This document shows positions 16,916 through 64,000 of a stretch of 64,000 nt of DNA, in pieces. The stretch's first letter is position 1; every line of letters begins with the position of its first letter. A program made the translations under genes and the position numbers. The notes below the pieces were generated by a model. The model had not been told where the DNA came from, did not search any database, and saw nothing but the letters and a program-made list of their open reading frames with translations. The stretch covers positions 1-64,000 of the forward strand of contig JASAMV010007680.1 of assembly GCA_030248065.1 (NCBI GenBank). Reading direction: 5' to 3'. The DNA comes from Rhynchonema sp. JSB1_4. Lineage: Eukaryota > Nematoda > Chromadorea > Monhysterida > Xyalidae.

Positions 16916-16945
16916 TTTGAAAGTGCATGTGCACGCTTCATACAT

Positions 16946-17222: not shown

Positions 17223-17742
17223 ATCAATATGTAGCGAAGAACTGCGACAAAAATGAACATCCAAATAAATACCACACGTCAAAGCCAACAACGCAAACAA
17301 TATTACGAACTGAGTGCGTTTCCTACGCTTGGATCTTTTGCTCTCTGGGGTCTCTGAAAATATCCCACAGGCCACAACCCAGACAAAAGGTGCTTTACCA
17401 AACTGTCATTCATGGGTAAAACGCTCGAAGTAACCCTCTTACCTGTGGATCAGAGGAGTTTACGCAATTGGACACCTTGGACACATTCGTTGGGCAAACG
17501 TCGTGGTTCACGTGACAGTTACTGAATTGCAACAGACAGACAAAGAGACAAAAATAGACAAATAGGCAATAAATGCCCCCCCCCGATATTGGCGTTTGGG
17601 CATACGTTCGCGCAGGAGTCAGCAGGCCAGAGTTAAAAAGGACAAGGCATCCGTGTGATAAAAATTGTAAATTCGTTTGGAGAGTGGGTGTCAATTATTG
17701 ATTTTTATTAAATGGAATTTTACAAAAAAGGTTTGATACCGT

Positions 17743-18254
17743 CAGGGTTGGGCAAAAAAAACGACGGCGTTTTTTCTTAAAAAACGACGTTTTTTTAAAA
17801 AAAACGCCTGGGTCGTTTTTCGTTTTTTTTTAAATCCTGAATTTCCTTGATTTTCCCTGATTTTTCAGGGAAAGTACCCTGATTATCAAGGAAAATGAAT
17901 TTTTTGTCCCATTTTTTTCAAAAAATTTTCGACCAATTTTTACTTTGTCGAGATACGTCGATATACGGAGTTTGACTTTCAGTGATGACCCCGGCCAAAG
18001 TTGGTCCCATGATGCGGGTCTGACTTGGGATCTAAGCAACTCGCTAGAAAAAGGTTGAAACCCGTTTATTTTGCCACAGAACACATAGAATTACTTCATT
18101 TAACCACGTTTTCGTCCCAACATGAGCATTTTCCAATTTTTTTGGGGGCATATTTTGGTCATCTGGGCGTTTTAAAAAAACGTTTTTTTCAAAAAAAAAC
18201 GTTTTTTTTAAAAAAAAACGATTATTGAAAAAAAACGTTTTTTGCCCAACCCTG
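17743..18254. mobile_element. hAT-type MITE with 8-bp duplication, left-arm specific
   Basis: Starts CAGGGTTGGGCAAAAAAAAC and ends GCCCAACCCTG. It is flanked by exact GATACCGT duplications (17735-17742 and 18255-18262). It shares its interior with 7418-7900. The matching right-arm position (about 63.5 kb) has continuous sequence without the element. Confidence 0.95.
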
Positions 18255-18262
18255 GATACCGT

Positions 18263-19564
18263 AGGTGAGCATTAGATTAGGAACAAACATAATGTACAAT
18301 ACGTGCTTTTTTGTCATGTCTGTGTCTTATCAATCTTTGTAATCAGTCACAATGCTTCATCCTCTCCGCATTCCATATTGTTAATCACGGATGCACAGAG
18401 CCCAATTTTTGTAGATGACTGATCATAATTTCTCTCTGATAATCTTAGTGTATGTCGGGCGATGGTATAGCATACTTACATATACATCAATTTTATAACT
18501 ACTGTACCACACAGAATGTATTTGGGGATGATTGCAGTGAAAACGTTTTGTTTTGGGTGTGTGTGGTTGGCCTGGATAGGAGCAAAACCTCCAGTCCACC
18601 AAGGGTACTCTGAAATACATAATTGAATGCGGCACTAATGTCAAACCAAAGTCAAACTCCGACCCTGATACAGTATGTGAGCAAAATACAAATGCATATG
18701 TACATACGTAACCAGAATATGTGTACTGTGTGGACAACACAGACAAGACTACATTACAGAGTACGGTACCCATTTGGCTCGTCATCAGTGCACACCCAAA
18801 CACCGAATGCACATTTTTACCAACTTTGATAGCGCAACGCCACCTCAAGGCGCTTGCTTACTTACAAAACGTGTGTATATGCAGCAAGACAGCTGACACC
18901 CGACAGCTATGTAGATCACACCTTGGGGTGCGTGATGGTTTGACCCAATTTTTCTTTCCATCCTGGTTGTTTGGTTTTGGTTGTTGGGACACGAACCCAT
19001 AATAGGAATGTGGTAAGTAGTGCACAAAGTCAGCAATGGAACTTAGGCAAACAAGACTACACCGGGTTGTACGGCATTATTACACCGCAACAATAGGTAA
19101 CCGGGGTGACTCGCACACCTACATACATACATACATACGTGGGATAAGCTTTAACACCAAGAGTGGCCGCAATGTTACGTAACCTATTTTTATGCAGTGT
19201 GTGCGGTTTATGGTCTATTGGTTCCATAAGTGTGCGACCTAAGGGATCGGGATGGGATGGGAGCGCCGGCTGTTGTTGAAAACCAGAAAGTGTGGACTCT
19301 TTGTTTTTGGGTGTCGCACTGGAGCGCACGCTTTGCGACGTAGAATGTGTGGTACCCAATTTCCTACACCGAAAGCTGGCCCAAAATACCTGGGCGTTCT
19401 TTGGCGACTTGCATACCTTGTGGTGTCCCAATCTTGGACAGCGCCGAAAATTTTTGTTCCACTCATTTCAGCCTCCCGCTTTTGTTCTTTTTTGCTCTCA
19501 CTGGCGAAAGCTTTATCCTGAAAAGTCGACTTTTGCCCCGGTTGCCTAAATTTATTTGGTCATC
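18263..19564. other. upstream region of troponin T, mirrored in the right arm
   Basis: Non-coding sequence alignable in reverse complement with about 62.1-63.5 kb (shared words GTGGTTGGCCTGGATAGGA and CCGACCCTGAT). Contains a short CATA microsatellite near 19123-19139. No second gene is recognisable. The promoter of troponin T presumably lies near its right end. Confidence 0.5.
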
Positions 19565-19618
19565 CTTTTGTAAATAAAAGACCGAGATTCCTGACGATTC
19601 CATCAAAAGTGAAGCATC

Positions 19619-22600
19619 ATGGCTGACGACGAAGACTATGGCGATGAGACCGCGTACGTACGGCACACGCTTTAAACTTTAGATTTAGGATAACAACAGA
19701 AAAAAATTGTTCTTGTTTTGTTGAATAAACAGTGATTTACGGCATACATGAGATTAATAAAATTCAATCATCCAGTTTCATTTACATCCCAGGAACATGA
19801 CGGAAACCGAGAAGGCCCTGTTTGTAAGTTTCTGGTGCGCAAATCCATAGAGAAAATTAGTACAGGAGTTTTTCACGAGCCCCCTTAAAGGGCTCGGGAC
19901 ATAACCGAAGGAAGGGTAGCAGGACATATTGTTACATACCGTTGGAAAGCATTCCGACAGCCTATGTCACGCACAAATTTTAAGCTCCTTGGAAATTCGC
20001 TATCTCTTGGTAGAGCGACTTTTCGTTCCAGAAAAAAGTGAATTTTTGCACAAATTGGAACGACCGGTGCAGAAACCCCAAATGAGTTGAAGGTCAAGTA
20101 ACACGTGGATAAGATTACAACAGCTTCTGAGTAACTTACGATCACAACTTCAATCGCTCAAGGCATTGCTTCATACGGTGAGGGTGCGAAACGTTCCAAA
20201 AATCGGCCATATTTTTCGAGAACACAAGTTTGTCCCTAAATTTTGAGGCCACGCTTAGCGCTGCGGAAATAAGAATGCAATGGGGAAATAGAGCATCGTC
20301 GAAAGTACCAGAAAATAAGGTTTTTAAATTTTTTTAACTCATGGCTATCTCCGTGACAGGCCTAAAAATCCATTAAATTGCCGCTAAATTAGGTGGTTAC
20401 ATTCATCGCCAGAATTGTAACACATAAAGGCCACAGATTGTATCGGATTCTAAACAAAAAAATGAGAGAAACGTCTGTCTTAACAATCTATCAAGGTCCA
20501 AAGACCCCAAGGTCTACAGATCTCTCGGGGCAGCCATACTAACCTGAGTATGATATTCAGCTATAAATGCTTATTGTTAACAGCTATCGTAAATGTGATA
20601 GCACCAAACAATGTATCTCGGGATTAGCTTTCGAATGATATATAACAAGCCCCAATAAATTCTTACGCTTAAGGGCAGAGGTTGAAAAACTGCTTTTTTG
20701 ACGATTCTGGAATGAACCGTCACGTCCCCGTGCGCGAATTCGGAATTTTGACCGTTTCTTGTCCATAGTAAGAGATAGTATGGGCATGTTATATATCGTT
20801 CGATAGCTACGTTGAAGCTACATCGTTTGATGCTATTAAATGTAGAATAATCTTTAACAGTAACGACTTATAGCCAAATATCTTATCCAGGCTGGCGTGG
20901 CTGCAGCAGCCGGACCATGGGGGTTGAAGTCTTGAAACTTGTCTAGATTGTTGGACTGTGCGTTTATCTGACTTTCTCGTTTCCAATGCAATACAATACG
21001 TGGCTTATTTACATCACATTTCCGTCAATGAATGCAACTATACAGATTTGTGGCAATTTTTAGGTCTTTTTCAGCCTGTCACGCCACTATCTAAGTGTTT
21101 CCAAATTTAAAGACCTTATTTTCTGGTACTTTCGAAAATGCTCTATTTTTCTATTGCATTTTCATTTCTGCAACATGAAGCGCAGCCTCAAAATTTAGAG
21201 ACAAACTTGTGTTTTCGAAAAATGTGGCCGATTTTTGGAACAATTCGCACCCTCACCGAGTGAAGCAATGCTTTGAGCGACTGAAGTTCTCATGATAAGT
21301 TATCCAGAAGCTGTTGTAATCCTATCCACGTGTTACTTGACTTTCAACTTATTTGGGGTTTCTGCACCGGTCGTTTCAAGTTGTGAAAAAATTCACTTTT
21401 CTCTGGAACGAAATGTCGCTCTACCAAGAGATAGCGAATCTCTAAGGAGCTTAACATTTGTGCGTGACATATGCTGTCACAGCGCTTTCGAACGATGTAT
21501 AACACTGCGCTCTGCTGCCCTTCCTTCGGTTGTGTCCCGAGCCCTTTAACAGAGCCCCGAGGCGAAATACTCTTGACGACGATTTCCACAAACTGACGAA
21601 AAACAACCAACAAATTTTTTTACTAATCTGTCTTCATCGGTAAATTGCTTGAAACAAAAAGATTAATTTTTTCGAACATACATAGCCCTGGGCCTTCATA
21701 TGGAAAACTCCGGTACGTTGTAGATTAACGATATACAGTAGTCCGTGTGTCATGCATGCGCAAGAGTGTCCTGTGTTCGGTCTAAAAAATGCACAAATTT
21801 CCTTTTGACTCTATCAATCACGCAGCCTAAAATCTGCAGCTCAAAACATTTTTAAGATGGCCAAAAAGAAGCATGAGGCCGAGATGGAGCGTTTCATTGA
21901 AGAATGGAAAGTGCAGCGGGAGGAGGAGCGGCAGAAACTGGATGAGGAACTGGAAGAGCTCCGGGAACGACAGGTTGGCCGGTGTTTCAACTTGACGTTG
22001 GAACTTCTACTCAACTTATTGTCCCAACTAACCATCAAACTACAATTACTTGAAATATATACATAAGCCCCCTGGTTTTATCCTCTTTGTCGCCATGTAA
22101 TTATAGTATTCAATAGAAGAATCATTGTTTTTGTGTCAACACGAATATGTATGCACTAGATGGTCACGTGAGACCGAAAACACAAGCAGCTTTTATCTTG
22201 TCCTGGTTGTGCAAAAACGCGTAAACTTTGTCGGCATAACGGACAGCAGGGCACCGGCGGATCAAGTTTTGGGCAAGGGAGGGGCCAGATCCGAAAAGTC
22301 ATTTTTATCTGATGCGTGTTCCATTTTTTGAAAAGTCTTTATCTTTTGTATGCGTAGTTAGAACCGGCGTTTTTTACAATAATAAACCACACAAAACATC
22401 ACGCACGAGAAGTTTTGGCACTTTTTATTCAAGTATGTATGTATAACCGTATACGGATACGACCATTGCCGGAATCCCCCATGCATAGATATTTTGTCAA
22501 ACTCCTCACTTTCCACTCGCAGGCTCGACGTCTGGAGGAACGAATGGAAGACGAAGCGCGTATGAATGAAATGTTGCAATTGGCCGAGGAGCGACGCAAG

Positions 22601-25600
22601 ACTGAGGAGGTATGGGTGCACCGCTGAAGGGACGCTGTCAGATATTTGCTCAGACGCGGCCACAATTGCACCACGATATACAAATGACATCTTTGCATCT
22701 GCTCAAATACGTGCAGCTCTCCGAACCTAATGTATAAACAGGCGTGAACAAGCGTAACTAATAAGAACTGGTCTTCTGACTGTTCAGGAAGACCGCAAGA
22801 AGAAAGCTGAAGAGATCAAACGAAAAAAGGAGGCCGACCGAAAGAAGAAGCAGGCATTGATGCAGGGCGGTGCACTCATGGCTGCCGGGGATGGCAAACC
22901 GAATTATGTGTTGCCCGAAAAGGTAAAGCGTCACTGTACCGCAATGAGTCTGAATTATTTTGACAAGTGGTCATAGGAGAGCTTTTGACCAAAAAAAATT
23001 TTGGTACAAATTTGACTTGGCACGTCACACACTCTGAAAATGAGTATTACGAAAGCACCAGCTGCGCTGAACGTGCGTAACACATAATGAATTCAACTTC
23101 ACTGGAACTATCGGACATATACATACGTGTTGACGAATATTTCTCGCTTTCAAAGTCTATAAAAGGGACCACTCCAGAAAGATCCGGTGGGTTACTGTAC
23201 TCTTGGACTGGGTAAGAAATAATACTTTATGTATGAATGCATATTTTATGTACCCTTTACTCAAGTCCGTTTATGTACCCATATTGAAACATCTGGGGTG
23301 TGGAAATGTGACCCAGTATTCATACGGTTAGCAACATTAACCTGTAACATTGCGCAAACAGCATGCGCTTGTTTCCGGGATTTGTCTTGCCATTCTAGCG
23401 CGGCTGATATTGGTCCTCTGTCAAAATTTGAAACGTTTGTTTGATAAGTGAATATAAGGGTGGAAATTCATAATCGTTTCGGCGCCGCGTGCTTGTGTTA
23501 CACACTTTCCTGTGCATTAATTCAATTCCAATTGAATTCATTCCATGTATCAATTCAAATGTACATTTTAGCATTATTAAAAATTTTTTTCCCCTATGTT
23601 CTTCTGGCATTTGCGTCACACACATACAGTATGGACGTGGTATTTGTGGAATATATGTGCGAATCGAGCGCAAACATAGTGAACTCGAAGCACGGCTTAT
23701 ATGAATGTCGTCAACGCTCGTCGTCGCAACTCGCACCCCTATGTATATAATGCCATTACGTGCTGCTCGCGCTCAGTCCAAGTTGCTTGACCTTGTGACG
23801 ACCGGAGTTGACGATTTTATTTGACGGCTGAAATAATGAGCCCAAAGCGCAAGGCTGGCTGTAATTCCGGCCCTCTGCTGCGACGCTCACCGACAACTAT
23901 CCGCGCAGCAGAGAGTTTTGAAACACAAATTCAAAAGTAAATAAAGATTCGCCTTACTTTTTTCAGAAAGGCACAAAGTCCGACGAATCAACGGGCATCA
24001 AAGCGATGGGCGGCACTGGTGAAACGATTGAGGATTTTCAGAAGGCAAAGGCCGAATATTTGGAGCAAGTTGGTGTAGTTGAACTTGATGAATCAAGGGG
24101 CTTAGCTGGTTGGGAAACTGAAGCGCGGCAACATTTTCATTGATCTCTGATCGGGGGTCACACGATGTTAGTCAGTTTCTCGGCAAGGTTTTGTCGAATG
24201 TATAATTCTTAGGTCGTCCAGTAATCGCAGATTTAGACCAGCGGTTTGGAACAGAGAAACGCAAGACTTGACGCCATTCTCATTGATTTTCCCTGATGCA
24301 GCAAGGCAACAACGAAAAAACCTCTCCATCACAAATTTGAATTTGCCTATAAGCACTCGCTCGCTATATACGCGTTTCGAACATAGCGTACATACATATG
24401 TATGTATGCAGGTACTCTCATATGCGCACGGTCCCTGATATTACAAATGTTTCATCATTCATGTGCAGTACAAGAGCGACCCGCCCGGTCTAGATGAGTT
24501 GGACACCACCGCATTACGCCAACGTGTCAAGGCGTTGCACAAACGCATTTGTGAGCTGGAGGCCGTGCGTTACGACATGGAGCAACGCATGAACATACAA
24601 GAAATGGATGTGGGTTACGGTAGATTATTGGACACTTGGTTACTGTTTAAGTGTTTGACGACCAGTTGATGTTTCACATAATTGGGAATGAACACAGTTT
24701 ACCGTGCCCACACGACCGACCGGGACATGGAGCTGTTCGTCACTTTTTGAAGAACGTTAAAGGGTGTGTCTAACGTCTCCTAACCCCATGTTTTGTTGGG
24801 TGGAATTGAAAGATGCCCCCGAAAGGCCGCCGTGTGGAAAAAACCGCATCTTCTAACTCGCTAAATCGCGAAATCTTGAGGGTTACTTTTCGAATAAAAT
24901 CAATTTCCGGACACAAAATTCAGACTGAGCAGACGGAAAAGAGCTACGAAGCGAAACACACACAAACCAGCTTCTATGTGTTAAATGAAACATTCATTGT
25001 GTCCACAGTCAAGACAGCAGCCAGAGCGGTGTGTGTTGAGCGTCTACGTGCATTGTATAGGCGGCTGAGCCGCGCTTAAACATGCAATATGTTTCAGCAG
25101 AAAAACACCAAACGTGAGTAGCGCGCACTCAAAAGCGCCTGGAGTTTTGTGTCCGGAAATTGATTTAATTCGAAAAGTAACCCTCAATATTTCGCGATTT
25201 AGCGAGCTAGAAGACGCGGTTTTTTGCACACGGCGGCCTGTCGAGGTCATCTTTCGATTGCACCCAATAAAAAATGGGGTTAAGAGACGTTAGACACACC
25301 CTTTAAAGGGCTGGGGCTTGAATATACATACAGTACGTTCTACTTACAGTATACGCGGTTGCTGTAAAGGCCTAGCAGTGTACACTGTACACTGGGATGC
25401 AACAGTCTGTGCTTGTATGATTGTTGCTCTATGGTATGTATCAGACACAACAGTTTGTGGTCGAACAAGCAAGATTTACTCATCAACCACGACAATGAGC
25501 AGCAGAGAAACACTTGTCGGGTAGCTGAATCAGTCGTATCTGACCGACCCGACGGGTATGACATCGGAGTACCACGTAGGTACATGCACACTGTGTCTCA

Positions 25601-27979
25601 TGTATCACGGGAATGTACATATAATAACATCATTAGGGGCATATTAGGTACCTAATAAGTACATAATGCCTCCAAAGTGATTTGTGAAGAAAATTTTTCG
25701 ACACGAGAAAAAATGACAAAAAACCTCAAAAAGGCAATTTTTGGACGTTTCAGAGAATTTTTTACCCCGTTAAAAACAACTTTTAAAAAAATTTTCCCAA
25801 TCCTGATACAACGCTTGACAAACTGATGCTTTCAGATGCGCGAAATGCAGGAGCGCAAGAAACAGAAATTGCGTCAAATGGCGATGAAGAAGGGCCTGGA
25901 TCCGGACGCGTATGCCGCCGCCAAACATCCGGTTGGTTGATGTTTCACATGTTGTGCGTTGAACTTGGTAATTGGATCGCGTGACTGTTTTAATAGGTAT
26001 ATGGAGATGTTGAGAGATTTATTGACCGGACTTGAGATTTGTTGATGCTGCTTGTAGCCGATCTCACAATGTGCAGCGGATTTGCGGATTCAGCGGATTA
26101 GCGAGCCCGCTTTTCGAGCAAACCGATATTCCCTTTTTAACTCTCCGATCCGCTTGCATTCTCTGAGGTCTGCCTGCGTTCGATCTAACAGCCGTCTGAG
26201 GACAACTTTTGCGCTAAAAACTGTAGGCGAACTGTAACATCTCGAACACACAAAAATGCACAGGTCTTTTTTTAGTGTAGGGTAACGAACAAAGTCACAA
26301 GTCTTATAAGGAGACAACGAAAAAAAATTAACGACAAAATGCACAAACAAGTCACGCTGTTTGGCACCACACAATTTTCAGTTCAAAGTGTCCGTGGCCA
26401 GCGCTTATGATCGTCAAATCGATCGTCGCTCATATGGTGAACGCAAGGATGTGTATGCGGTGGGTTAATTTAATTAAAAGTTGCTATCTAATGTTAATTG
26501 GACATAATGTCCACACAGGCGTTGCGTTTCACCAGGGGAAAATTTCAACGTGGCCGTGAAACATCAGGAAGCAACCAATCGGCTCGCCAGATTAGGGTCG
26601 AGCAACGCGATGTCCAAGCTTTGTTTATATACATACATATGTACTACCCCCAAGATCAAGCGCGGTCGAAGGGTTGTTAACCAGCAGCTTTAGTTCCAAA
26701 GTGGATTGATGCAACCGCCCACTTTGCTTGCAGCCAAAAATGCGCAAAGCCAAAACAGTGTACCACGGTTCGGGCAGACCGCCCGGCGAGTGGGGACGCA
26801 CGCATTTGGAAGAGATTGAGATTCTGCGCAAACTAATGGAGGACAATCCGACCAAGTATGAGGAAGCGGTTAGTATGTGTGCGTCTCAAAGTCGATTGTG
26901 AAGCGAACGTGGATAGACTGAATTTGTTACTTGAATGTTTGCTTTTCAGCGTCGCGCCACAATTTCTTGCACTTGAAGGCCGATTTATTGGGCATTTGAA
27001 CAGTTTTGCTGGAGAAAAGCGCAGAAATTACCCACTCTGTTCATTTTTGTGAGCGAAATACACGGCGCTGGGCATCAAATGTTGACAGCACCTTTTACCA
27101 TAATAAGGCCCCCCGAGCGCTTTTGTCGGCAACATTTCTAAATGTAGCCCTCGAAAGCTCGGTTGGCGCGGGTGCCATGCATGCCAATAGGTACTGTGCT
27201 GAATCGGTACGGCAACAGATTAACTGTATGTAGCTCGCCCCAATGGTATTAGCGTAGGGTGGAGCTTAGACCTGCGCCAGGACTTGGCAGCCTGAAAGCC
27301 TAAGTCTGAGTCCAAGCGTAGGGTACTACTGGGGGCCGGGCAAGCAAATTTGTAGAACCGATGACGTGCGCATAAGCTCCATATTTCAAGCATGAATGTA
27401 CCCAAACTCGCAAACGGCGCACATTTCAGTGTCCAATGGAAAACCCACAACCGCCATTCAAGCCGATCCCAATGGTGGCGCCCGAAGGCGATGAGTGCGA
27501 TGCGCCCCCTGAACCGGACGCCGCACCGCCCGAGACCGGATCCGATTTTGTAAGTTTTTTGACTGTGGCTGTTTTTTTTTAAACTTTTAGTGGGATGCGT
27601 ACTGCCCTGCCACCTGGTTTTGGTGTCACTTTGGCCACCTGTTGCTTGCGCACTGACGAGCACCTGGTGCACCGTCCGTGTGCGAAACGGTTGAAACTCA
27701 CACTGCTGTGTGACATCGCATGAAGGCGGCAGATCGACGAGAATATACATAGCTTGAGAACGACGCTTTGGCCAAGCGTTTTTATGCTTCTTCAATTGGT
27801 ATGCATTTCTTCAGTTGCGGATATGAACTTCCTCGAAAATTATGAAACATTTCCACTTTCGCGAGTTTCGTAAGCTTGGTGGTGCTTTCTTTTTTCAGCA
27901 CAAAGAGGCAGCGCCGCCAGCTGAAGAGCCCGCGCCTGCGCCCGAACCTGAACCCGAGCCGGTCGCGGCCGAAGAATAA
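19619..27979 (+). CDS. troponin T, left-arm copy (complete, 12 coding exons)
   Basis: Troponin T anchors the troponin complex to tropomyosin on muscle thin filaments. Exons: 19619-19653, 19793-19823, 21857-21973, 22523-22609, 22788-22922, 23967-24068, 24469-24609, 25836-25931, 26382-26459, 26734-26868, 27430-27549, 27899-27979. All junctions are GT-AG and phases agree, giving about 385 residues. Order: acidic start MADDEDYGDETANMTETEKA; Lys/Glu-rich tropomyosin-binding coiled coil (RFIEEWKVQREEERQKLDEE, RRLEERMEDEARMN); NYVLPEK; C-terminal coiled coil (LCHKR-type region LRQRVKALHKRICELEAVRY); MKKGLDPDAYAAAKHP; DRQIDRRSYGERKD; HGSGRPPGEWGR; acidic Pro/Glu tail ending PVAAEE. The last blocks are typical of invertebrate, especially nematode, troponin T. 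Core residues equal the right-arm copy; differences cluster in the tail. Intron 2 holds a TTAA element absent from the other arm. Confidence 0.93.
19889..21545. mobile_element. TTAA-target foldback element in troponin T intron, left-arm specific
   Basis: 1.66 kb bounded by TTAA at 19885-19888 and 21546-21549. Ends AGGGCTCGGGACA and its complement; inverted arms of about 550-650 bp (GCTCTACCAAGAGATAGCGA and complement). The right-arm intron at the same place is only about 350 bp and reads GAGCCCTCTAACAGAGC, an unoccupied site. TTAA targets are typical of piggyBac-type elements, but no transposase is encoded. Confidence 0.85.
23178..23211 (+). other. 34-nt candidate alternative (poison) exon of troponin T, left copy
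   Basis: Between an ACTCCAG acceptor and a GTAAGA donor lies an identical 34-nt segment in both arms (right: 58071-58104, minus). It encodes KDPVGYCTLGL and resembles the KDPSFGL motif that follows the same place in insect troponin T. Being 34 nt it ends in phase 1. Joined to the next constitutive exon it shifts the frame and meets TGA after about 19 codons. Either it is an exon of a transcript with a different downstream partner, or a frame-breaking regulatory exon, or an evolutionary remnant. Confidence 0.4.
24761..25302. mobile_element. TTAA-target foldback element 2, left-arm specific
   Basis: 542 bp between TTAA (24757-24760) and TTAA (25303-25306). Ends AGGGTGTGTCTAACGTCTC and complement; inverted arms contain GGCCGCCGTGTGGAAAAAAC. 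The right arm at the matching intron reads GAACGTTAGGGCAGGGGCTT without the element, an empty site. The arms encode matching frames on both strands (TASSNSLNREILRVTFRIKS), which arise from the inverted structure, not from a gene. Confidence 0.88.
25310..25805. mobile_element. partial hAT-like element related to 59587-61122
   Basis: Shares GACCGACCCGACGGGTATGA, CACTGTGTCTCATGTATCAC and the TTTTTGGACGTTT region with the right-arm element in reverse complement. It ends CCCAATCCTGATAC near 25806. The left terminus is not resolved and no target duplication was found. It occupies a troponin T intron. Confidence 0.55.
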
Positions 27980-28116
27980 ACAAGAAATTAAAAACTGCTT
28001 TTTTCGTATCTTCAAATGTTTGTCGGTTTTTAAGTAGAATTTTTTCTGGACAATATGCGTTTCTTTAGTCACTCGTTACCAGTTCCTCCAAAGTTGTCGA
28101 TGCCGATGGTTTTCAA

Positions 28117-51160: not shown

Positions 51161-51228
51161 TGTCCATCTATCATTTCGTTTCGCCGTGTTTTATTGAAAC
51201 ATTTCCAAAAAAACATTCACACACACGC

Positions 51229-51822: not shown

Positions 51823-54800
51823 TTATTCTTCTGCCACGACCGGCTCAGGTTCAGTTTCGGGCGCAGGCGCGGGCTCTGCCGCCGGTGGCGCTGCCTCTTT
51901 GTGCTGGAAAAGGAAAGCACCGCCAAACTTACGAAACTCGGGAATGTGGAAATGCTTCAAAAATTTCGAGAAAGTTCATTTCCGGAACTAGAATAAATGT
52001 ATCAATTGGAGAAGCATATAAAAAAACTTGGCCAAAGTGTCGTTCTCAAGCCATGTTCCCGCGATCTGTTATTTTTTCATGCGATGTCACACAGCAGTGT
52101 GAGTTTCAACCGTTTCGCACGCAGACAGTGCACCAGGTCATCGTCAATGCGCAAGCAACAGATGGCCAAAGTGATATTGGTCGCACAATGACTATATAAG
52201 AATTCATCAAATCAACCCTGATTTTTCACGTTCAGTCACTCTTAACCACTGTGCTACATGTATCTTTGATGTTGCCGGGATGGCAGTGCCGTGATGCAAT
52301 CATGTTGTTGTGTGTCTTTGAGAGACGAACAGCACCACGGGACTGGGTGCTGTTCGTCTCTCAAAGACACACAACAACATGTGCTACATGTGATTCTCAC
52401 AAAACATTTTCAGCTGAAAATAATCTAGCAGATCAACCACGTTCTGAAACATTCTCTTCACTACATGCTTTGTGTGCGATCACGCAACGCAACGTCACTG
52501 TCCCGTCCCTTTCCCTCTTTACGATTCAGGAAAAAAATTTGACCAATTCTTATAAAGTCATTGTGCGACCAATATATACCAAAATCAGGTGGCAGTGCGC
52601 ATCCTATAGTAAGTTTCCAATTTCGTTGCCTCATGCATTTTTTACAGACGCAGGAAAACTCCAGTTCAAAGTCGAGGCAGGCAACAAGCTCAACACACAG
52701 TCAACAAGCCACGCAGCTGACACGCACACAGCTTGTGTGACTGAAACATTCGAAACGCATACGAGCCAGCAACGGGGCTTGTTGACTGGAGTATTGCGCT
52801 TGTTGCCTGCCTCGACTTCGAACGGCAGTTTCCCCGCATCTGTAAAAATGCATGGGACTACGAAATTAGAAATTTACTATACCAATACCATCAGTGCCAA
52901 GGTAAGAAACAGGCAGGCCACAAGACAACAGTACACTGTTAGTATTCCAATATTTCATAAACCAGCCACATGGTCAAAAAACTTACAAAATCGGATCCTG
53001 TCTCGGGTGGAGCGGCGTCAGGTTCAGGGGGTGCTTCACACTCATCTCCTTCGGGCGCCACCATTGGGATCGGCTTGAAGGGAGGTTGTGGGTGTTCCAA
53101 TGGACACTGAAATGTGCGCAGTTGCGAGTTTGGGCACATTCGTGTTTGAAATATGTATATGGAGCTTATGCGCACGTCACCGGTTCTTTAGATTGGCTCG
53201 CCCCCCAATGGTGTGCAGCTTAGGCTTGGGTTTGGGCTTGCACTCAGGCTTAGGCTTTCAGGCTGCCTAGCCTTAGTGCAGGCCTAAGCTCAACCCTAAA
53301 GCTTAAACCATTGCGGCGAGCTATAGTTAATCTGTTGCAGTACCGATTCGGCAAATTCAGTTCAGCAGCGCAGTACCTATATTGTCATGTATGTAAAGTA
53401 TACAGCCCGGCCAACGCAGACTTCAAGTGCTATATTCGGAAGCATTGCCGAAAACAGCGCGGGTATGGGTAGAAAGTGGTGACAAAATTTGATTAGCGGT
53501 GGTGTGTATATCGCTCACAAAAATGAAAAGTGCGGTGATTTTCACGCTTTTCTCCAGCAAAACTTTTGAAATGCCCAATAAATCGGCCTGCAAGTCCAAG
53601 AAATTATTTGTGGCGCGGCGATGAAAAGCGAAAACATTCAAAAGACAAACATTCAGTCTCTCTATCCACATTCTTTTCACTATCAACTTTGAGACACACA
53701 CACACACTAACCGCTTCCTCATACTTTGTCGGATTGTCCTCCATCAGTTTGCGCAGAATCTCAATCTCTTCCAAATGCGTGCGACCCCACTCGCCCGGCG
53801 GTCGGCCCGAGCCGTGGTACACCGTTTTGGCTTTGCGCATTTTCGGCTGCAAGCAAAGTTGGCGATTGGACCAATCAAATTTGGAATTTACCCGTTTTCA
53901 AAATAAAGTCACGGCAGTGTTCGAACGGGATCCCGATCCCGATCCCGGGATCCCGGGCCCTTTTGCTGATCCCGATCCCGATCCCGTCATTTTGAAAAAG
54001 TCAATCCCGATCCCGATCCCGATCCCGCCCAAAAAAGTACCGGGATCGGGATTAAGTTTTGAGAACAAAAAGTTAAAAAATTATGCAATCATAGCTCGCC
54101 AGCTGTTGTAAGGGCGCGGCCATGGAAACGCGGGCGCGGGTCGCGGGTCAGAAAAATATTCTATATGTCCAACAACCTCCCCGCGTTTGCATGGCCGCAC
54201 TTGCGGGTCGCGGTTTGCGGGTCACTTGAAACATTTATTTGGCTGCAACACACACAAATTAACCAATCAGCGTCCAGCCAACGTCGCAGACTGCCGTAGC
54301 ACAGCGCTGATTGGTTCATTTTTGTGTGTAATGGCTAAATAAATGTTTCAAATGACCCGCAAACCGCGACCAGCAAGTGCGGCCATGCAAACGCGGGACG
54401 GTCATTGGACATAGAATTATTGTTGACCTGCGGCCCACAACCGTGTTTGCGTGGCTGCGCTCCTAAGAGGTGCTCGACGGCTGATTCCGAGCGTGATGAA
54501 ACCGCAAGCACCACCAATCGCGAACAAATCGACCTCTAGAACTGAACGGTTACACAAAGTTGCATCGAACGAAGGGACTCAGTTTCGAGGAAATGATGTC
54601 ATGGTGGGCAACAAATGAGACACAAAGTTTCCGCGACTGGCACGTCTAGCTTCCAAATATCTAAGCGCTCCGCCTACGAGCGTGCCTTCTGAACAGCTCT
54701 TGTCCAGTGCAGTTGATTTGTTTGATGACAAAAGATACTGCTCGAAACCAGAAAATGGTGAAATGCTCGTCTTTTTGTCGAAGGCTTTGCTATTGATCGA

Positions 54801-57800
54801 CAACAATTATGATCTTTGAACTTATCCGTCATCAGTTATTCTCGATTTTCAATTGGCTTTATCACTGTTCCGGGTGTTTATCCATGTGTGATAAACATGC
54901 TTCATGGCTGTCTGTGACATTAACGTGCATCTTGTGCATAAAATGATAAAAACTATTGCTTTTGGACTATCTGGTCAATCCCGATCCCGATCCCGGGATC
55001 CCGGGTTTTGAAAACCGGGATCCCGATCCCGACACTTTCTTGATCACAATCCCGATCCCGATCCCGGGATTAAAAATGAATCCCGTTCGAACACTGCGAC
55101 GTGAGACAAGACGATAATATGACCGGCACGCATGTTGAAACTTTTTTAGAATTTTGGCAGCGAAAAGATGCAGCCACCTCCCAGAAAAGTCTAGCCCCAT
55201 CCAAAAATAATCCCCCTGAAAAGGGCCAGTGAAAAAACACAGCCCTGTTGTATCATGGTAGGTTTTGCAGTGTACACGTCCTGGTTGGCGGGTGATCGTA
55301 TCTCCGCGACGGGTCGTGTGTTGGTATAATCGCACATCACGTGACGTCATCTAGCCTTGCCCACAAAAACAGAAGCAGCAGCGGTCGTCTGACCCGCGTT
55401 ACCAGCCAAAAACATTGTTTGTGTGTGGACATTATGTCCAATTAACAGAAGATGATAGCAACTTTTTGCCCAACGCACCGCATACACATCCTTACGTTCA
55501 CCATATGAGCGACGGTCGATTTGACGATCGTATGCGCTGGCCACGGACACTTTGAACTGAAACAGCGTGTGGTGTGCCAAACGGCGTGACTTGTTTACAC
55601 ATTTTGTCGTGTTAACTTCTTTTCGTTATCTCCCTGTGACTTTGTTCGTTACCCTACACTAAAAAAAGACCTGTGCATTTTTGTGTGTTCGAGATGTTAC
55701 AGTTCGCCTACAGTTTTTAGCGCAAAAGTTGTCCTCAGACGGCTGTTAGATCGAACGCAGGCAGACCTCAGAGAATGCAAGCGGATAGGAGAGTTAAAAA
55801 TTGAATATCACTTTGCCTGAAAAGCGGAATCGCTAATCTGCTGAATCCGCAAATCCGCTGCACTTTGTGAAATCGGCTACAGCAGCATCAACAAATCTCA
55901 AGTCAGTCAATAAATCTCTCAACATCTCCATACCTATTTTTTAATAGGATCCACAGTCACGCGATCCCATCACCAAATTCGACACACAAGATGTGAAACA
56001 TCAACCAACCGGGTGTTTGGCGGCGGCATACGCGTCCGGATCCAAACCCTTCTTCATCGCCATTTGACGCAATTTCTGTTTCTTGCGTTCTTGCATTTCG
56101 CGCATCTGAAAGCACCCGGCGTTTGTCAAGCACGAAGCGTGTTGCGTGCCGCATTGGTGCATCTCTTGTTCTCTGCGAGAACACAGAGCAAAAGTTTCCC
56201 ACAATCTGAGGGGTTCTTTTCACTAATTCTTCAGCAAATCATTGTGCGAGAATTTGTTCTCTGTTCCGTCAGGGAACGATACATAAGTATAATAAATCTA
56301 CACTAGGTCTTTACAGTAACCGAGTTTACTGTAAGTACATCGTATTCAAGCCCCTGCCCTAACGTTCTTCAGAAGGTGACAAACAACTCCATGTCCCGGT
56401 CGTTTCACTACGGTAAACGTGTTTATTCCCAATGTCAACTTGTCGTCAAACACTTATCATTATAACAGTAACCAAGTGTTCAATGATCCACCGTAACCCA
56501 CATCCATTTCCTGTATGTTCATGCGTTGCTCCATGTCGTAGCGCACGGCCTCCAGCTCACAAATGCGTTTGTGCAAGGCTTTGACACGTTGGCGCAATGC
56601 GGTGGTGTCCAATTCATCCAGGCCGGGCGGGTCGCTCTTGTACTGCGCATATGGATGAAACATTAGTAATATTAGTGCCGTGCGCATATGAGAGTGCCTG
56701 TATACATATGCTGTACTCGGAACGCGCATAGCGAGCGAGTGCTTACAGGCAGATTCAAATTTGTGATGAAGGTTTTTTCGTTGCTGCCTTGCTGCATCAG
56801 GGAAAAATCAAGGAAAATGTCGTCAAGTCTTGCGTTTCTCTGTCCCAAACCTCAGGTCTAAATCTGCAGTTACTTTTTCGTGTCTTCCCTGGTAATACGA
56901 TAAGACCCAAAAATTACATTCCACAAAGTACGTACCATGCCTCTAAACCTTGCCGAGAAACTGACCAACTGCATCCGTAGGTGGCCCCCGATCAGAGATC
57001 TATGAAAATATTGCCGCGCTTGCATTTCCCACCCAGCTGAACCCCTGATCTATCAAGTTCAACGACACGAACTTGCTCCAAATACTCGGCCTTTGCCTTC
57101 TGAAAGTCCTCAATCGTCTCGCCAGTGCCGCCCATCGCTTTGATGCCCGTTGATTCGTCGGACTTTGTGCCTTTCTGAAAAATATAAAACGGATATCTTT
57201 ATTTATATTTGAATTTGTGTTTCAAAACTCTCTACCAGTGTTCGAACGGGATTCCGATCCCGATTCCGGGATCCCGGGCCCTTTTTCTGATCCCTATCCC
57301 GATCCCCCGTCATTTTGGAAAAGTCAATCCCGATCCCGGGATTAAAAATAAATTCCGTTCGAACACTGCTCTCCACTGCGCGGATACATAGTTGTCGGTG
57401 AGCGTGTTCGTACTTTCCTGCAGCCGAGGGCCGGAATTACACAGCCTTGCGCTTTGGGCTAATTGTTCGGTCGTCAACTCAAGTCGTTAACCCTGGTGGT
57501 CAGGTCAGGCAACTTTGACTGAGCGCGAGCAGCATATAATGGCATTATACATAAGGGCGAGTCGGCGACGAGCGTTAACGGCTTAAGTTGACGACATTAA
57601 TATAAGCCGTGCTTTGAAGTCATATGTTTTGCGCTCGCTCCACAAATATTCTTCAAACACCACGTACCGTAGTGTGAAACAAATATGCGGTATGTAAAGA
57701 ATAACGAGAAGAACCGCGAGGGAAAAATTTTAATTAATGTACATAGGGACTTGCATTAATACATACGAAAGTGTGTAATACAAGCACGCGGCGCCGAAAC

Positions 57801-60800
57801 GACTATGAATGTTCCTCTCCTTATATTTTACTTATCTGACAAACGTTTCAAATTTTGGCAGAGAACCAACATCAGACGCGCTAGAAGGGCAAGACAAAAT
57901 CCCGGAAACAAGCGCATGCTGTTTGCGCAATGTTGCAGGTTAATGTTGCTAACCGTATCAAGACTGGGTCACATTTCCATACCCCAGATGTTTCAATAAG
58001 GGCACATAAACGGACTCGAGTAAAGGGTACATAACAATAATTCATACTACGGTATTACGTTCTTTCTTACCCAGTCCAAGAGTACAGTAACCCACCGGAT
58101 CTTTCTGGAGTGAGTCACTTTTCCGACTTTGAAAGCGAGAAATATTCGTCAACACATATATACGTAATTCCGATTATTTGAGTGAAGTTGGATTAATTGT
58201 GTTGCGCGCGAATCAACGCGGCTGGTGCTTTTCGTAATTATACGCGGAATATCACTACTATGCTGTGCCAAGTCAAACTTGAACAAAAAAATTTCTTGTC
58301 GACAATATTCTCCTATGACCACATTGTCACAGTAACAGAGACTCAACGCACGTATTGATACGTACATATAGTGACGCTTGGTTCCCACACCACAAGCGGC
58401 ACTAATTATTCAAAATTGATCATTATCACCTTTTCGGGCAACACATAATTCGGTTTGCCATCCCCGGCAGCCATGAGTGCCCCGCCCTGCATCAATGCCT
58501 GCTTCTTCTTTCGGTCGGCCTCCTTCTTTCGCTTGATCTCCTCAGCTTTCTTCTTGCGGTCTTCCTGAACACTCAAAAGATTTAGTTATCTTATTTTGCT
58601 GCTTCACGCCAGTCTATAGGTTCGGTGAGCAGATGCAAAGATGACATTCCTATTGCTGTATGTATATCGTCGTGCAATTGTGGCCACGTCTGATACATAA
58701 TATATACTAGACGGGACCCGTGCCTACGGCCCGGCTACAGCGCCGCGCCCGTGCCCCCCCCCCCCCCCGAAGACCCGTTAGCATACCCAAAGCTACCCGT
58801 GAAAATTGACCCGTCATAGACGGCAGGCAGCGGTCAATGGAGTGAAGCGTGGTGGAAAAGAAACGGAAGATAACAAAGGGGAAACTGAGTTAAAAATAGG
58901 AGGGGGAGAGTGGAAAATGGGCTTGAGAAAGGTGGGAGGGAAGGGAAAGAGGAGGGGAGGTCAAGAAGGGGGAAAAGGGAATTGGAAAAAAGAAGGAAAG
59001 AGAAGAGAAAATGGAAGGAAGGGGGGAAACGGAATTAAAAATAGGAGGGGGAGAGTGGAAAATGGGCTTGAGAAAGGTGGGAGGGAAGGGAAAGAGAGGA
59101 GACTGGCCTGAGAAGGACGGAAGAAAAAAGAGGAGGGGAGGTCAAGAAGGGGGAAAAGGGGAATTTGAAAAAAGAAGGAAAGAGAAGAGAAAAGGGAAGG
59201 AAGGGGGGAAAGAAAAAAGGAGGGAAGGAAGGGAAAGAGAGGAGAGTGAAAATTGGAAAAAGAAGGAAAGAGAAGAGAAAAGGGAAGGAAGGGGAAAGGA
59301 AAGAAAAAAGGAGGGAGGGAAGGGAAAGAGAGGAGAGTGAAAAGAGAGGGAGGGGGCCACAGACAGACAGACATACATACGCCTTCCTGTTTTAGTAGTA
59401 TAGATTATATGTATGACGAAGACAGCGTTCCTTCGGCGGTGCACCCGTACCTCTTCAGTCTTGCGTCGCTCTTCGGCCAATTGCAACATCTCATTCATGC
59501 GCGCTTCGTCTTCCATTCGTTCCTCCAGACGTCGAGCCTGCGTGAAGAGTTTGACAAAATATCTATGCATGGGGGATTCCGGGAATCAGGGTTGGGCAAA
59601 AAAAAAATTTTTTAAAAAAAAAGCTTTTTGAAATTTTTTTAAAAAAAAATTTTTTTTTAAATTTTTCTGGGGAAGAAAATGTTCTAAAACGTCCAAAAAT
59701 GGCCTTTTTGGGGGTTATTTTTTGTCATTTTTTCTCAAGGGTCGAAAAATTTTCTTCACAAAATCACTTTTGGGGCATGTATTTGGTATCTAAGATGCCC
59801 CAAATGATGTTATTATACTTCCCCGTGATACATGAGACACAGTATGCATGTACTTACATAGTACTTTGATGTCATACCCCATCGGGTCGGTCATATACGA
59901 CTGAGTCAGCGACCCGACAAATATTTCTGCAGCTTATATTCTCAATTCTGTATGGTTTATGAGTAGTGATGGGCTCGCTCCCAATTTTTTCCCTCGCTCG
60001 CTCTTCGCTCTAAGAGCGAAGAGCGAAATCGCTCTTCGCGCCCAGGCGCGAAATTGAAATTTGAGTTCGCTCGCTCTTCGCTCTAAGCGCGAAGAGCTAT
60101 TTCGCTCTTTCGCTCTTTGCCGCGCTTTCGTTCGCGCCCGAGCGTTTCGCTCTTTTTTTCGCGCTTTCTTGCTTTGATGCGTTTGAACAAAAAATCTTTT
60201 GTAAATTATTCAGAAATGTTGTTAATGTTTATATCCAGAGAAAGAATCATTATTCTTTCAGTTCAGAGAAGAAGAACGACAATATGGCGTGGCGACAATC
60301 ATGTGTTCTGACAATCATGATTGAACATGCATGTGTTCTGTTCTGTTGCTCATCAGTTTTGCCCTGTTCTATTTTGTTTTGTTGTATTGTAGTGTGGCAC
60401 GGACATAATCAGGTGCTTGTAAGTTGTAAGTGTATCAGTGTGCGTCAATATCAATGTCTGGTTCAAAATTCAATGATCAAAATTGAAGTAAACGGAACAT
60501 AAAGGTATTTTATTTACCATTCCGATGCGATATTGGAAACAGAGCACTCATGCATGGGCTGGGCAGTGTGACTCGCCCATTGTGCGACTGAGTGTGAGAC
60601 CAATAACTGTTCTGCACTCCTTTTTTGATGAAAGCACAAAATTCTGGCCTGTTGCTATTCACAGTATCAAAGAGCGAAATTTGTAAAAAAGTTTCGCTCG
60701 CTCTTCGCTCTAAGAGCGAAGAGCGAAATCGCTCTTCGCGCCCAAGCGCGAAATTGAAATTTGCCTTCGCTCGCTCTTCGCTCCGGGCGCGAAGAGCGAA

Positions 60801-62052
60801 GAGCGAAAAAAAGAGCGAAATTTTCAGGCGCGAGCCCATCACTATTTATGTGTGAATCTTGCTTATTCGACCACAAACTGTTGTGTCTGATACCACAGAG
60901 CAGCAATCATAGGTCCATAACAAGCACAGACTGTTGGATCGCATCGAAATGACGTAAACACCCTTCATAAGTGATGCAAACCAAGTCACAAAAGTGACTC
61001 GTCAATTAAAGTTGCATTTTTTCGCGATTTTGCGCGTTTTTTAGGCAAATTTGGTAAAATTTCCCCGAATCTGAGACTTTTTAAAAAAAAACTTGTTTAA
61101 AAAAATTTTTTTTCCAACCCTGCCGGGAATAATCGTATCCGTATGGCTCAATGCATACTTGAATAAAAGTGCCAAAACTTCGCGTGCGTGATGTTTTGCG
61201 TGGTTTATTAGTGTAAAAAACGCCGGTTCTAACCACACAATAGATAAAAATGACGTTTCAAAAATAATGAACAAGCACTGGATAAATATGACTTTTCGGA
61301 TTTACCCTTCCCTTGGCCAGTTGATGGGTGGTTGGAATAATAAGTTGAGTTGAAGTTCCAAGTTGAAACATCAGCCAACCTGTCGTTCCCGGAGCTCGTC
61401 CAGTTCCTCATCCAGTTTCTGCCGCTCCTCCTCCCGCTGCACTTTCCATTCTTCAATGAAACGCTCCATCTCGGCCTCATGCTTCTTTTTGGCCATCTGG
61501 AAATGTTTTGAGCTGCAGATTCAAGCTGTTCGATTAATAGAGTCAGAAGGAAATTTATTGTATTTTTTAGACCAAGCACAGTTGACACTCTTGAGCATGC
61601 ACACGACAACAACGTACCGAAGTTCTCCATATGAAGGCCCCAGGGCTATGTTCGAACAAGTTAATCTTGTTAATTTTGTTTCAAGCATATTTCCGAAGGA
61701 GACAAATCTTTTTGCAAAAAAATTTTTGTTGGTTGGTTTTTGTCATTTTGTGAAACTCATGTCCTTCGCCACGGTGCTCTGTTAGAGGGCTCTATGTGAA
61801 AAACTCCGGTGCTAATTGTTTATATGGATTGCGCACCAGAAACTTACAAACAGGGCCTTCTCGGTTTCGGTCATGTTGCTGGAATATGTAAATGAAACTG
61901 GATTATTGAATTTTATTTTTAATCTCATGTATGCCGTAAATCACTGTTAGCAAAACAAGGGCAATTTTTTTCTGTTGTTATCCTACATCTAAAGTTTAAA
62001 GGGTGTGTCGTACGTACGCGGTCTCGTCGCCATAGTCTTCGTCGTCAGCCAT
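51823..62052 (-). CDS. troponin T, right-arm copy (complete, 12 coding exons)
   Basis: Exons in coding order: 62018-62052, 61848-61878, 61380-61496, 59451-59537, 58430-58564, 57073-57174, 56502-56642, 56010-56105, 55479-55556, 53712-53846, 52987-53106, 51823-51903. Same exon lengths and phases as the left copy, so an intact frame of about 385 residues. Most exon differences are synonymous (for example none changes MKKGLDPDAYAAAKHP or HGSGRPPGEWGR). Amino-acid changes cluster in the last two exons: CPLEHPQPP against CPMENPQPP, DECEAPP against DECDAPP, and EPVVAEE against EPVAAEE. That pattern is what purifying selection on the tropomyosin- and troponin-binding core would leave. Introns carry several right-specific transposons. 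Confidence 0.93.
52176..52573. mobile_element. MITE family 3 with internal perfect hairpin, right-arm specific
   Basis: ATTGGTCGCACAATGACTAT at the left and complement GTCATTGTGCGACCAAT at the right. It interrupts a troponin T intron that is continuous in the left arm (about 27.63 kb). A second, perfect 36-bp hairpin lies in its centre (52301-52381). Confidence 0.9.
52301..52381. repeat. perfect 36-bp inverted repeat with 9-nt loop
   Basis: CATGTTGTTGTGTGTCTTTG at 52301 is followed by AGAGACGAACAGCACC, a 9-nt loop ACGGGACTG, and then the exact complement to 52381. No mismatch in 36 pairs. Confidence 0.95.
52604..52880. repeat. foldback family 2, compact copy
   Basis: TATAGTAAGTTTCCAATTTC at the left and GAAATTAGAAATTTACTATA at the right. 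It includes GACTTTGAACTGG-type arms (GTCGAGGCAGGCAACAAGC and complement). Related to 15815-16012 and 16690-16915. Confidence 0.85.
53915..55096 (+). mobile_element. hAT transposon relic (GATCCC family), right-arm specific
   Basis: 1.18 kb with CAGTGTTCGAACGGGATC and complement ends, co-linear with 28117-29321 but at a different, non-mirrored locus inside a troponin T intron. The hATC segment (54579-54824) retains TSVPSEQLLSSAVDLFDDKR but is frameshifted. Unlike the other copies I could not see an 8-bp duplication (AGTCACGG against CGACGTGA), so one flank may have been rearranged. Confidence 0.88.
54579..54824 (+). pseudogene. hAT transposase hATC remnant, right
   Basis: Two frames are needed: EEMMSWWATNETQSF before a frameshift, then SKYLSAPPTSVPSEQ and DDKRYCSKPENGEMLVFLSK. 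It extends further 3' than the left relic, which stops earlier. Non-functional. Confidence 0.75.
57236..57368. mobile_element. 133-bp hAT MITE (GATCCC family), right-arm specific
   Basis: CAGTGTTCGAACGGGATTCC and complement ends. Flanks CTCTCTAC (57228-57235) and CTCTCCAC (57369-57376) form an 8-bp duplication with one mismatch. The left arm at about 23.91 kb is an empty site (GCAGAGAGTTTTGAAAC). Confidence 0.92.
58071..58104 (-). other. 34-nt candidate alternative exon of troponin T, right copy
   Basis: Identical base for base to 23178-23211, with CACTCCAG acceptor and GTAAGA donor on the minus strand. Flanking intron sequence differs between arms more than this segment does. Confidence 0.4.
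58705..59405. mobile_element. interspersed repeat with purine-rich core, right-arm specific
   Basis: Ends TAGACGGGACCCGTGCCTAC and TTTTAGTAGTATAGAT. The middle (58850-59350) is an almost pure A/G strand made of 130-200-bp imperfect repeats (GGAGGGGAGGTCAAGAAGGG, GGAAAGAGAAGAGAAAA). The left arm at about 22.64 kb has no insertion. Reading frames over 100 codons here are low-complexity artefacts. Same family as 6463-6626. Confidence 0.85.
59587..61122. mobile_element. 1.5-kb hAT element with nested second element, right-arm specific
   Basis: CAGGGTTGGGCAAAAAAAAA at the left, TTTTTCCAACCCTG at the right, exact 8-bp duplication CCGGGAAT (59579-59586, 61123-61130). The left arm has the unoccupied ATTGCCGGAATCCCCC (about 22472). 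No transposase seen. Another element (59964-60844) is nested inside. Confidence 0.94.
59964..60844. mobile_element. nested hAT-type element with TAGTGATGGGC ends
   Basis: TAGTGATGGGCTCGCTCCC at the left, GCGCGAGCCCATCACTA at the right; flanks TTTATGAG and TTTATGTG give an 8-bp duplication with one mismatch. The arms are built of GCTCGCTCTTCGCTCTAAGA foldback repeats. It inserted into the 59587-61122 element. Confidence 0.9.
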
Positions 62053-63590
62053 GATGCTTCACTTTTGATGGAATCGTCAAGCCCTTTATTTGAAAAAAAA
62101 TGACCGAATATACAGTATTCAGGCAACCGGAACAAGAGTTGAGTTTTCAGGATAAAGCTTTCCGCCAGTAACTAAGCGCGGAAGCGGTTGAAATGAGGAG
62201 AACAAAAATTTTCGGCGATGTCCAACACTGGGACACCTTAAGGTATGGGGGTCACCAAACAACGCCCAGGTATTTTAGGGCAGCTTTGGGTGTGTAGGAA
62301 AATGGGTACCACATTCTGTACGTCGCAACAAAGCGTGCAGTACATAATGCGACACCCAAAAATAAAGGATCTGGTTTTCAACAACAGGCGCTCCCATCCC
62401 GACACCCCAAGGTCGCACACGTCTGGAACCAATATACCATAAACCGCACCACACTACATAAAAATAGGTTACGTAATATTGCGGCCGCTCTTGGTGTTAA
62501 AGGTTAGTGGTATCGTGCGACGGGTCAGTCCCGAGGCACAGGTTCAGGCCCTGCCGATTCAGGCCCGGATGGAGCCTACTTAAGCCTAAGCCGAATGGGT
62601 CAAATATGCTGCGCCTGAATCGGCCGGGCCTGAAAAACTGGGCCTGAAAAGGTCGGGCCTGAACTTCCGGGCCTGAAAAGTCGCGGAATAGTGCTAGTCG
62701 TCCCAGCTACTATTGTTGCGGTGTAACAATTCCGTACAACCCGGGGTAGTCTCGTGTACCTTATGTCCATCGTTGACTTTGTGCACGAAACTGCATTCCT
62801 ATTATGGGTTCGTGTCCCAATAACAAAACCAACAACCAGTCTTGAAAAGAAAAATTGGGTCAAACCATATCACGCCAGCCCAAGGTCTGATCTACATAGC
62901 TGTCGGGTGTCAGCTGTCTTGCTGCATACACGTTTTGTTGGTGGCGAGCGCCCTGAGGTAATGTTGCGCTATCAAAGTTGGTAAAAATGTGCACTGCGTG
63001 TTTGGGTGTGCACTGATGACGAGCCAAATGGGCACCGTATTCTGTAATGTCTTGTCTGTGTTGTCCACACAGTACACATACTGGTTACGCAACGCATTTG
63101 CATTTTGCTGACAAATCAGGGTCGGAGTCTGACTTTGGTTTGACGTGGTTTGGCATTTAATTTTGTGTTTTCGTACCCTTGATGGACTGGAGGGTTTGTT
63201 CCTATCCAGGCCAACCACATATACAACCAAACAAAATGTGTTTTTACTGCAAACACTCCAAATTATGTACATTCTGTGGACAGTTATGAAATTGGTGTAA
63301 GTTTACAGGCGACCGTATGCAACCCTCATCCGACATACAGTACACTGAAAATACATACCACAGAGAAATTACGATCAGACATTTACAAAAATTGAGCCCT
63401 GTGCATCCGTGGTTTGCAATATCGAATGTGGTGAGGATGAAGCGTTGTGTGTGACCGATTATACAAACATTGACATGACACGGCACGGGCATGACATAAA
63501 AGTACCTTTGATATAATGCTCACTTACAGTATAGAACAGATCAATCATTTTCGTAAAATTCCATCGGATTTTGAAAAAAAACATATACGT
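62053..63590. other. upstream region of right troponin T
   Basis: Aligns in reverse complement to about 17.6-19.6 kb. A GGCCTGAA-rich cluster (62540-62690) with GGGCCTGAAAAGGTCGGGCC is present only here and looks like another foldback remnant. No coding gene recognised. Confidence 0.5.
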
Positions 63591-63889
63591 ATACTTTGCC
63601 CAATATCTCACCCAACCGACAAAAGAATTTATAATTTTTATCATATGGATGCGCCATGTACTTTGAATCGGTCCTGCTAACACGCTTCAAGCTGTATGTA
63701 TGTACAATATCAATCAACCACGGCGTGATATTTCTTTTATTTTTCTTTTGCAAATTTGCAAAAAGTACTCTTCTTCAGACAGAATTGACCATGAAGTGGA
63801 TCCGTACTCAAATGCTCTTCATACCAGCACCGCGCACGTCAAAAGGGCAATGCAGTGTATGTACATATGTATGTATTCGGGGGGAGGGA

Positions 63890-64000
63890 AGAGAACCTTT
63901 GTTCGACAAACGTTCAAATCTTGAGAAGGTTCACAGCAGCGACATCAACCGACTGGTGACCTATGACTTTGTGCATCGGGAGGATCCGTATGCATTTCAA
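63890..64000 (+). CDS. possible exon of an unidentified gene, cut by the window edge
   Basis: One frame is open to the window end and reads FDKRSNLEKVHSSDINRLVT, then YDFVHREDPYAFQ, a normal mixed protein composition unlike the surrounding repeats. No acceptor is certain upstream; a poly-G/A tract precedes it. The product is not recognised. Confidence 0.35.

Follow-up and report, generated by a model that had tools for sequence, protein, structure and literature searches.

A troponin–KCC–KCTD locus occurs twice, head to head, in a single contig of the Rhynchonema sp. JSB1_4 assembly, which raises the question of whether this mirror-image arrangement belongs to the genome or was made during assembly. 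The preliminary description of the locus had named both possibilities: a real palindrome with central gene conversion, or two haplotypes falsely joined.

Extent and identity profile of the inverted repeat

The window analyzed here (the whole stretch of 64,000 bases) comprises bases 1–64,000 of contig C4727, which is 75,220 bases long and contains no N. The assembly searched has 203,913,205 bases in 5,747 contigs. Self-comparison of the window bore out the mirror-image homology that had been described, with positions 18,288–39,738 (left) collinear and inverted with respect to 63,518–41,484 (right). The outer limits first proposed, 17,400 and 64,000, have to be drawn in, as the repeat stops at 18,288 and 63,518 and only one short repeat match (16,945–17,090) lies beyond them. 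The window is divided as follows.

1–18,287 (no strand): left flank, outside the repeat; repeat-rich, with portions also on other contigs
18,288–36,748 (+): left arm proper; its differences from the right arm are ordinary substitutions and indels
36,749–38,174 (+): stretch of 1,426 bases that matches the right arm throughout (arm alignment)
38,175–40,155 (+): seam, in which the right arm is echoed in shredded form; differences set in at 38,175, and the end was placed by eye on the alignment
40,156–40,307 (+): turn, without a match to contig C2471 before 40,308
40,308–40,990 (+): innermost DNA of the right part, with copies of 98–100% identity on C2471
40,661–43,596 (−): inner right arm, the clean original of the seam, with a BTB/KCTD exon at 43,505–43,380 (alignment, Pfam)
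43,597–63,518 (−): right arm proper, with the first BTB exon, KCC and troponin (self-comparison, Pfam, PDB)
63,519–64,000 (no strand): right flank, running on to 75,220 beyond the window; second copy on contig C4726

The observation that identity falls outward was confirmed at several scales. BLAST identity between the arms rises from ~80% outside to 98% inside. Per 250 aligned bases, it is 56–94% at 18.3–28 kb, 88–94% at 28–31 kb and 97–100% at 31–38.07 kb. When gaps are disregarded, base identity across 18 blocks of the alignment is 0.868 outermost and reaches 0.991 in the core; in the left arm proper ~13% of aligned bases differ from the right arm at the outer end and 1–2% inward, with 4–13% differing in the outer blocks. 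Divergence in the outer arms is of an ordinary kind, as four blocks aligned at unit costs each contained 47–59 substitutions, 14–21 deletions and 8–26 insertions, with indels in both directions. Many gaps of at least 40 bases also separate the arms, and stretches found in one arm only reach 1,659 bases. The largest of these, taken from the gaps in the arm alignment, are listed below.

19,878–21,536, 28,113–29,322 and 32,863–33,955: extra DNA in the left arm
59,587–61,130: extra DNA in the right arm

Several repetitive elements were noted in the window. A 1.66-kb element at 19,885–21,549, present in the left arm only, consists of two inverted halves of ~770 bases each with 79% identity. Short elements at 24,757–25,306, 36,593–36,969 and 41,399–41,624 have many genome copies at 82–99% identity among the best 40 matches of longer lists, the copy evidence for 41,399–41,624 coming from its relative at 2,427–2,652. 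We label these short multicopy elements as much like MITEs; the element at 36.6 kb is common to both arms, and that at 24.8 kb is confined to the left. In the left flank, offsets of self-matches outline a tandem array with a period of ~137 bases at 11,608–13,055.

Genes carried by the two arms

The initial assignment of troponin, KCC and KCTD-like genes to the arms is upheld by Pfam and PDB matches, some of them weak. The troponin exon of the right arm matched PF00992 (E = 1.7e-5) with 25.6 bits, slightly below the Pfam cut-off of 26.2. The C-terminal piece of KCC matched 13 PDB sequences of KCC1–4 (E = 1.8e-4 to 3e-3), and an NCBIfam search of this piece gave no match. Two BTB_2 pieces of the KCTD-like gene scored 26.2 bits (above the cut-off of 21.4) and 19.4 bits (below it), and the top PDB match of this gene was a weak one to KCTD16 (E = 0.053). 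A troponin family search of the assembly matched only contig C3841 and missed even the window's own exon; single exons probably score low.

On our reading of the sequence, the troponin would be T, not I, and the neighboring conserved frames would be its further exons. The left arm contains a frame that corresponds to the troponin exon recognized on the right.

24,463–24,645 (+): left-arm frame matching the right-arm troponin exon (arm alignment; the Pfam match belongs to the right-arm copy)

This frame, which extends beyond the exon, differs between the arms by eight silent and four replacement changes in 61 codons. Across the putative troponin exon frames, silent differences per site (pS) are 0.16–0.25 and replacement differences (pN) 0–0.06, a biased sample in that the frames were chosen for low replacement relative to silent change. 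Because amino acid changes are few compared to silent differences in these frames, selection seems to have acted on both copies as coding DNA. Each arm has the look of a real copy of the locus.

The innermost left arm is a deletion-riddled echo of the right arm

Identity between the arms had been described as near complete at the center. This does not hold inside 38,310 and 43,597, where the match is riddled with deletions, and at 40,181–40,310 no match exceeds that of shuffled sequences. Arm identity breaks at ~38.2 kb, 2 kb short of the turn, and does so in one arm only. Aligned at unit costs with the right arm as reference, the seam at 38,310–40,155 (1,846 bases) contains 1,838 bases that match positions 43,596–40,661 (2,936 bases) in order. 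The alignment required 498 deletion events (1,090 bases), eight substitutions and no insertion. Under two alternative scoring schemes, 362–372 deletions, one insertion and 9–14 substitutions were counted. The edit distance of 1,098 is close to the minimum possible of 1,090, while 30 shuffled seams all gave at least 1,536.

In total, 37% of the bases are lost in the seam, and the loss is uneven among bases. G was lost almost twice as often as the others, at a rate of 0.59 (371 of 633) compared to 0.31–0.32 for A (253 of 801), C (218 of 689) and T (249 of 813). The same tendency is visible at the border, as the last twelve differences before 38,310 consist of eleven bases absent from the left copy and one substitution. 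When the alignment was widened through the turn to 40,400, the pattern became less pure, with 19.7 deletions, 0.8 insertions and 2.0 substitutions per 100 pairs. The BTB exon at 43,505–43,380 is open on the right and broken by deletions in the left copy. No other near-full copy of the inner right arm (41,830–43,600) was present among the best 40 of 209 candidates in the assembly, in which partial matches elsewhere extended to at most 315 bases at 67–86% identity. To our knowledge, no process of mutation or gene conversion deletes a third of one arm while hardly substituting it and inserting nothing, and spares the 1.4 kb beside it.

An identical stretch adjoins the seam

Directly outward of the seam, positions 36,749–38,174 are identical to the right arm, and the adjoining 2.8 kb farther out contains 54 difference positions. 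At that density, an identical run of 1,426 bases would arise by chance with a probability of ~e^-27 if differences were independent, which they may not be. Identity is uneven in this region, and other 250-base windows at 31–35 kb are also 100% identical. The stretch probably echoes the right arm after polishing.

The turn and its relation to contig C2471

Between the seam and the right part, positions 40,181–40,310 scored 38 against the mirror arm; 50 shuffles averaged 45 and peaked at 57. The end of the junk at the turn was set by the start of the C2471 match, so that the coincidence of the two is circular and carries no argument. On C2471, the DNA of 40,308–40,990 is split into two pieces that overlap by four bases (40,406–40,409) and have ~1,018 extra bases between them. 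C2471 is itself palindromic at 4,127–8,424 about position 6,275, and this palindrome is built of the same innermost DNA at 98–100% identity. C2471 may be a further product of fold-back, or may carry an insertion with target duplication.

A probable false join made by a fold-back read

Inverted homology, a one-sided and nearly deletion-only seam, an identical stretch beside it and an abrupt border at ~38.2 kb are observed in the contig. With a probability of roughly 85%, we regard contig C4727 as a chimera in which the head-to-head arrangement is a false join made by a fold-back read. The error pattern points to nanopore reads. The right part, from ~40.3 kb to 75,220, would be a single copy of the locus, in which one or a few fold-back reads would have begun. 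These would have reached ~40.3 kb, turned and returned along the complementary strand. The second pass would have lost more than one third of its bases and remained almost unpolished at ~38,175–40,155. Farther out, good reads of the same copy would have polished it, giving 36,749–38,174. There the two locus copies are ~99% alike outside gaps, and the assembler would then have continued leftward from 36,748 in the other copy.

A clean first pass followed by a noisy second pass would leave a seam on one side only, and polishing by reads of the same copy would leave an identical stretch. The false join is favored because only one arm is noisy, for 2 kb only and with an abrupt end. The noise alone is insufficient as proof because base loss is reported equally for real inverted duplications in the account of Spealman et al. 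(PMC7229812). It also counts against the false join that the left arm's true inner continuation did not turn up on other contigs among the best 40 of 209 candidates of the inner-arm search. No third copy of the arms appeared among the matches listed in the DNA searches of arms, seam and center, several of which covered the best 40 of 390, 1,836, 209 and 1,611 candidates; weak copies could be missed at this depth, and the search giving 1,836 candidates left out even the known right-arm copy from its best 40.

Comparison with known artifacts and palindromes

The closest parallels are fold-back (inverted-duplicate) artifacts of long reads. According to the account of Spealman et al. (PMC7229812), nanopore reads of inverted duplicates cross the pore too fast past the junction, so that bases are missed and the post-junction region is consistently, slightly shorter than the preceding one; this was seen in real inverted duplications. 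Heinz et al. (PMC12870357) report fold-back artifacts in ~0.55–0.6% of ONT genomic reads, virtually absent in PacBio HiFi, and state that fold-backs can tangle assembly graphs. The C4727 seam resembles such reads in being a mirror sequence about a turn point, with 38,310–40,155 echoing 43,596–40,661, and, as described in PMC7229812, in a putative second pass that is short and inaccurate, its 1,846 bases standing for 2,936. It differs in lying inside a finished contig, in leading into another copy of the locus and in having outer arms with ordinary substitutions.

Two points in these reports count against the false join. The loss of 37% in the seam is heavier than in the reads of PMC7229812, whose post-junction regions are only 'slightly' shorter, and the artifacts characterized in PMC12870357 are described as having no notable signal difference around the breakpoint. 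The latter runs counter to the expectation from PMC7229812.

Artificial palindromes also arise after whole-genome amplification, as reported with Pacasus (PMC6218980), and are similarly laboratory-made inverted duplications that enter an assembly. Their arms, presumably coming from one molecule, should be near-identical, whereas the outer blocks of C4727 differ by 4–13%. Among palindromes in animal assemblies, those reported in the parthenogenetic Adineta vaga and Folsomia candida share with C4727 gene-bearing inverted arms on one contig. The passages of the review that treat them (PMC7953838) mention no shredded center, and they note that erroneous scaffolding can generate palindromes.

Haplotypes or paralogues

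If the join is false, the arms come from two copies of the locus, and the preliminary suggestion of two haplotypes falsely joined is supported as to the join by the evidence of the seam. That the arms are haplotypes is plausible only, as the outer flanks are unrelated and contig C4726 is not among the outer-arm matches listed. We lean toward deeply diverged haplotypes rather than paralogues. The inward rise in identity fits haplotypes that are alike in the KCC–KCTD part and diverged in the troponin region, and an assembler could cross from one to the other in the part that is alike. Paralogues from two places in the genome, also falsely joined, are a variant of this best explanation, with odds that overlap its own; we hold this reading tentatively, as a possibility well short of even odds.

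The divergence of the arms bears on the choice. Silent differences of 0.16–0.25 per site in the selected troponin frames are high for alleles and would suit paralogues, while only two core copies were found among the best 40 of 390 candidates, which argues against them. The flanks also bear on it. Haplotypes would be expected to share flanks, and the left and right outer flanks have in common only the short repeat match at 16,945–17,090; that the left arm adjoins a different flank favors paralogues. A large insertion, another false join (at 18.3 kb) and paralogy could each account for the unrelated flanks.

C4726 carries a second copy of the right flank, at 84% identity for 64,001–65,807 and 92% for 66,109–69,900. 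C4726 was not among the best 40 of 1,611 candidates for the outer arm (61,130–63,700), and this absence of the other right-flank copy again favors paralogues. In the left flank, positions 440–5,600 also occur, among the best 40 of 2,642 candidates, on C5144 (97%), on C5126 (99% over the first 4,101 of 5,161 bases and 89% over the rest) and partly on C4213, giving three or more copies in the assembly. Positions ~5.6–9.7 kb occur on C4377 at 93–95% (BLAST), or 96–97% outside gaps. Second copies of the flanks at 1–16% difference on other contigs indicate that the assembly retains divergent second copies, which speaks against paralogues. As a single-copy control, RNA polymerase gave ten matches on three contigs only (C3045, C950 and C5485), which suggests no general doubling of the assembly and counts for paralogues; the three matched contigs may carry different polymerases.

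C4377 was considered as the second haplotype of the left flank and rejected, having only 5.6–9.7 kb and repeats in common with C4727. It contains an inverted repeat of its own at 3,120–5,658 and 16,270–18,904, with arms of ~2.5 kb at 88–92% identity that lie ~10.6 kb apart and form no head-to-head seam. A frame at 7,868–8,140 of the window encodes a ShK domain (PF01549, E = 3.1e-6), mostly in the stretch common to C4377. The C5126 copy of 440–5,600 begins 462 bases from the contig end, much as in C4727. In the right flank, low-density lipoprotein receptor class A and trypsin-inhibitor-like domains are encoded at 66.8–68.4 kb of the contig.

A real palindrome or a decayed copy

A real inverted duplication, with its center kept alike by gene conversion and the shredding due to nanopore failure at real inverted repeats, is improbable in our judgment. 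It would account for ~20 kb of collinearity between arms that both conserve coding frames, for identity that climbs toward the center and for unrelated outer flanks, as one duplicated segment would give. Such noise does arise at real inverted duplications, as described in PMC7229812. The argument against it rests on the sidedness and abrupt end of the seam. Reads entering a real palindrome from the left should cover 38.2–40.2 kb cleanly, and clean sequence ends at ~38.2 kb on that side only. Over its innermost 2 kb, one arm echoes the other in degraded form, with a bias toward loss of G and almost nothing but deletions. The 1.4-kb identical step between 98–99% and shredded sequence also argues against a real palindrome, as does the different arrangement of the innermost DNA on C2471. 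That contig, which shares the innermost 0.7 kb and is itself palindromic, could in turn be read as real palindromy at the locus. Slightly more improbable still is the full version of this explanation, a real 45-kb head-to-head palindrome with muscle and ion-transport genes, a gene-conversion tract at 31–38 kb in arms that are strongly different elsewhere, and a center misread through too-fast nanopore passage of self-complementary DNA.

A further reading takes the seam for a pseudogene, a real copy of the inner right arm that decayed and shrank over time through numerous small deletions. This would explain the unreadable second BTB exon of the left copy, yet it is scarcely credible in view of 498 deletions against eight substitutions and no insertion, the strand-asymmetric loss of G and the identical sequence adjoining. 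No neutral decay known to us has a spectrum of this kind.

Implications

As far as the evidence goes, the inverted repeat very probably belongs to the assembly rather than to the genome. The distinction matters beyond this contig, as gene-bearing palindromes in animal assemblies have prompted the hypothesis, recounted in PMC7953838, of a role for them in assisting gene conversion in asexual animals. A one-sided, nearly deletion-only central echo adjoining an identical stretch is a signature by which a false palindrome can be flagged without reads. For this nematode, C4727 is unfit as a basis for claims that troponin, KCC or KCTD genes are duplicated in inverted orientation in the genome.
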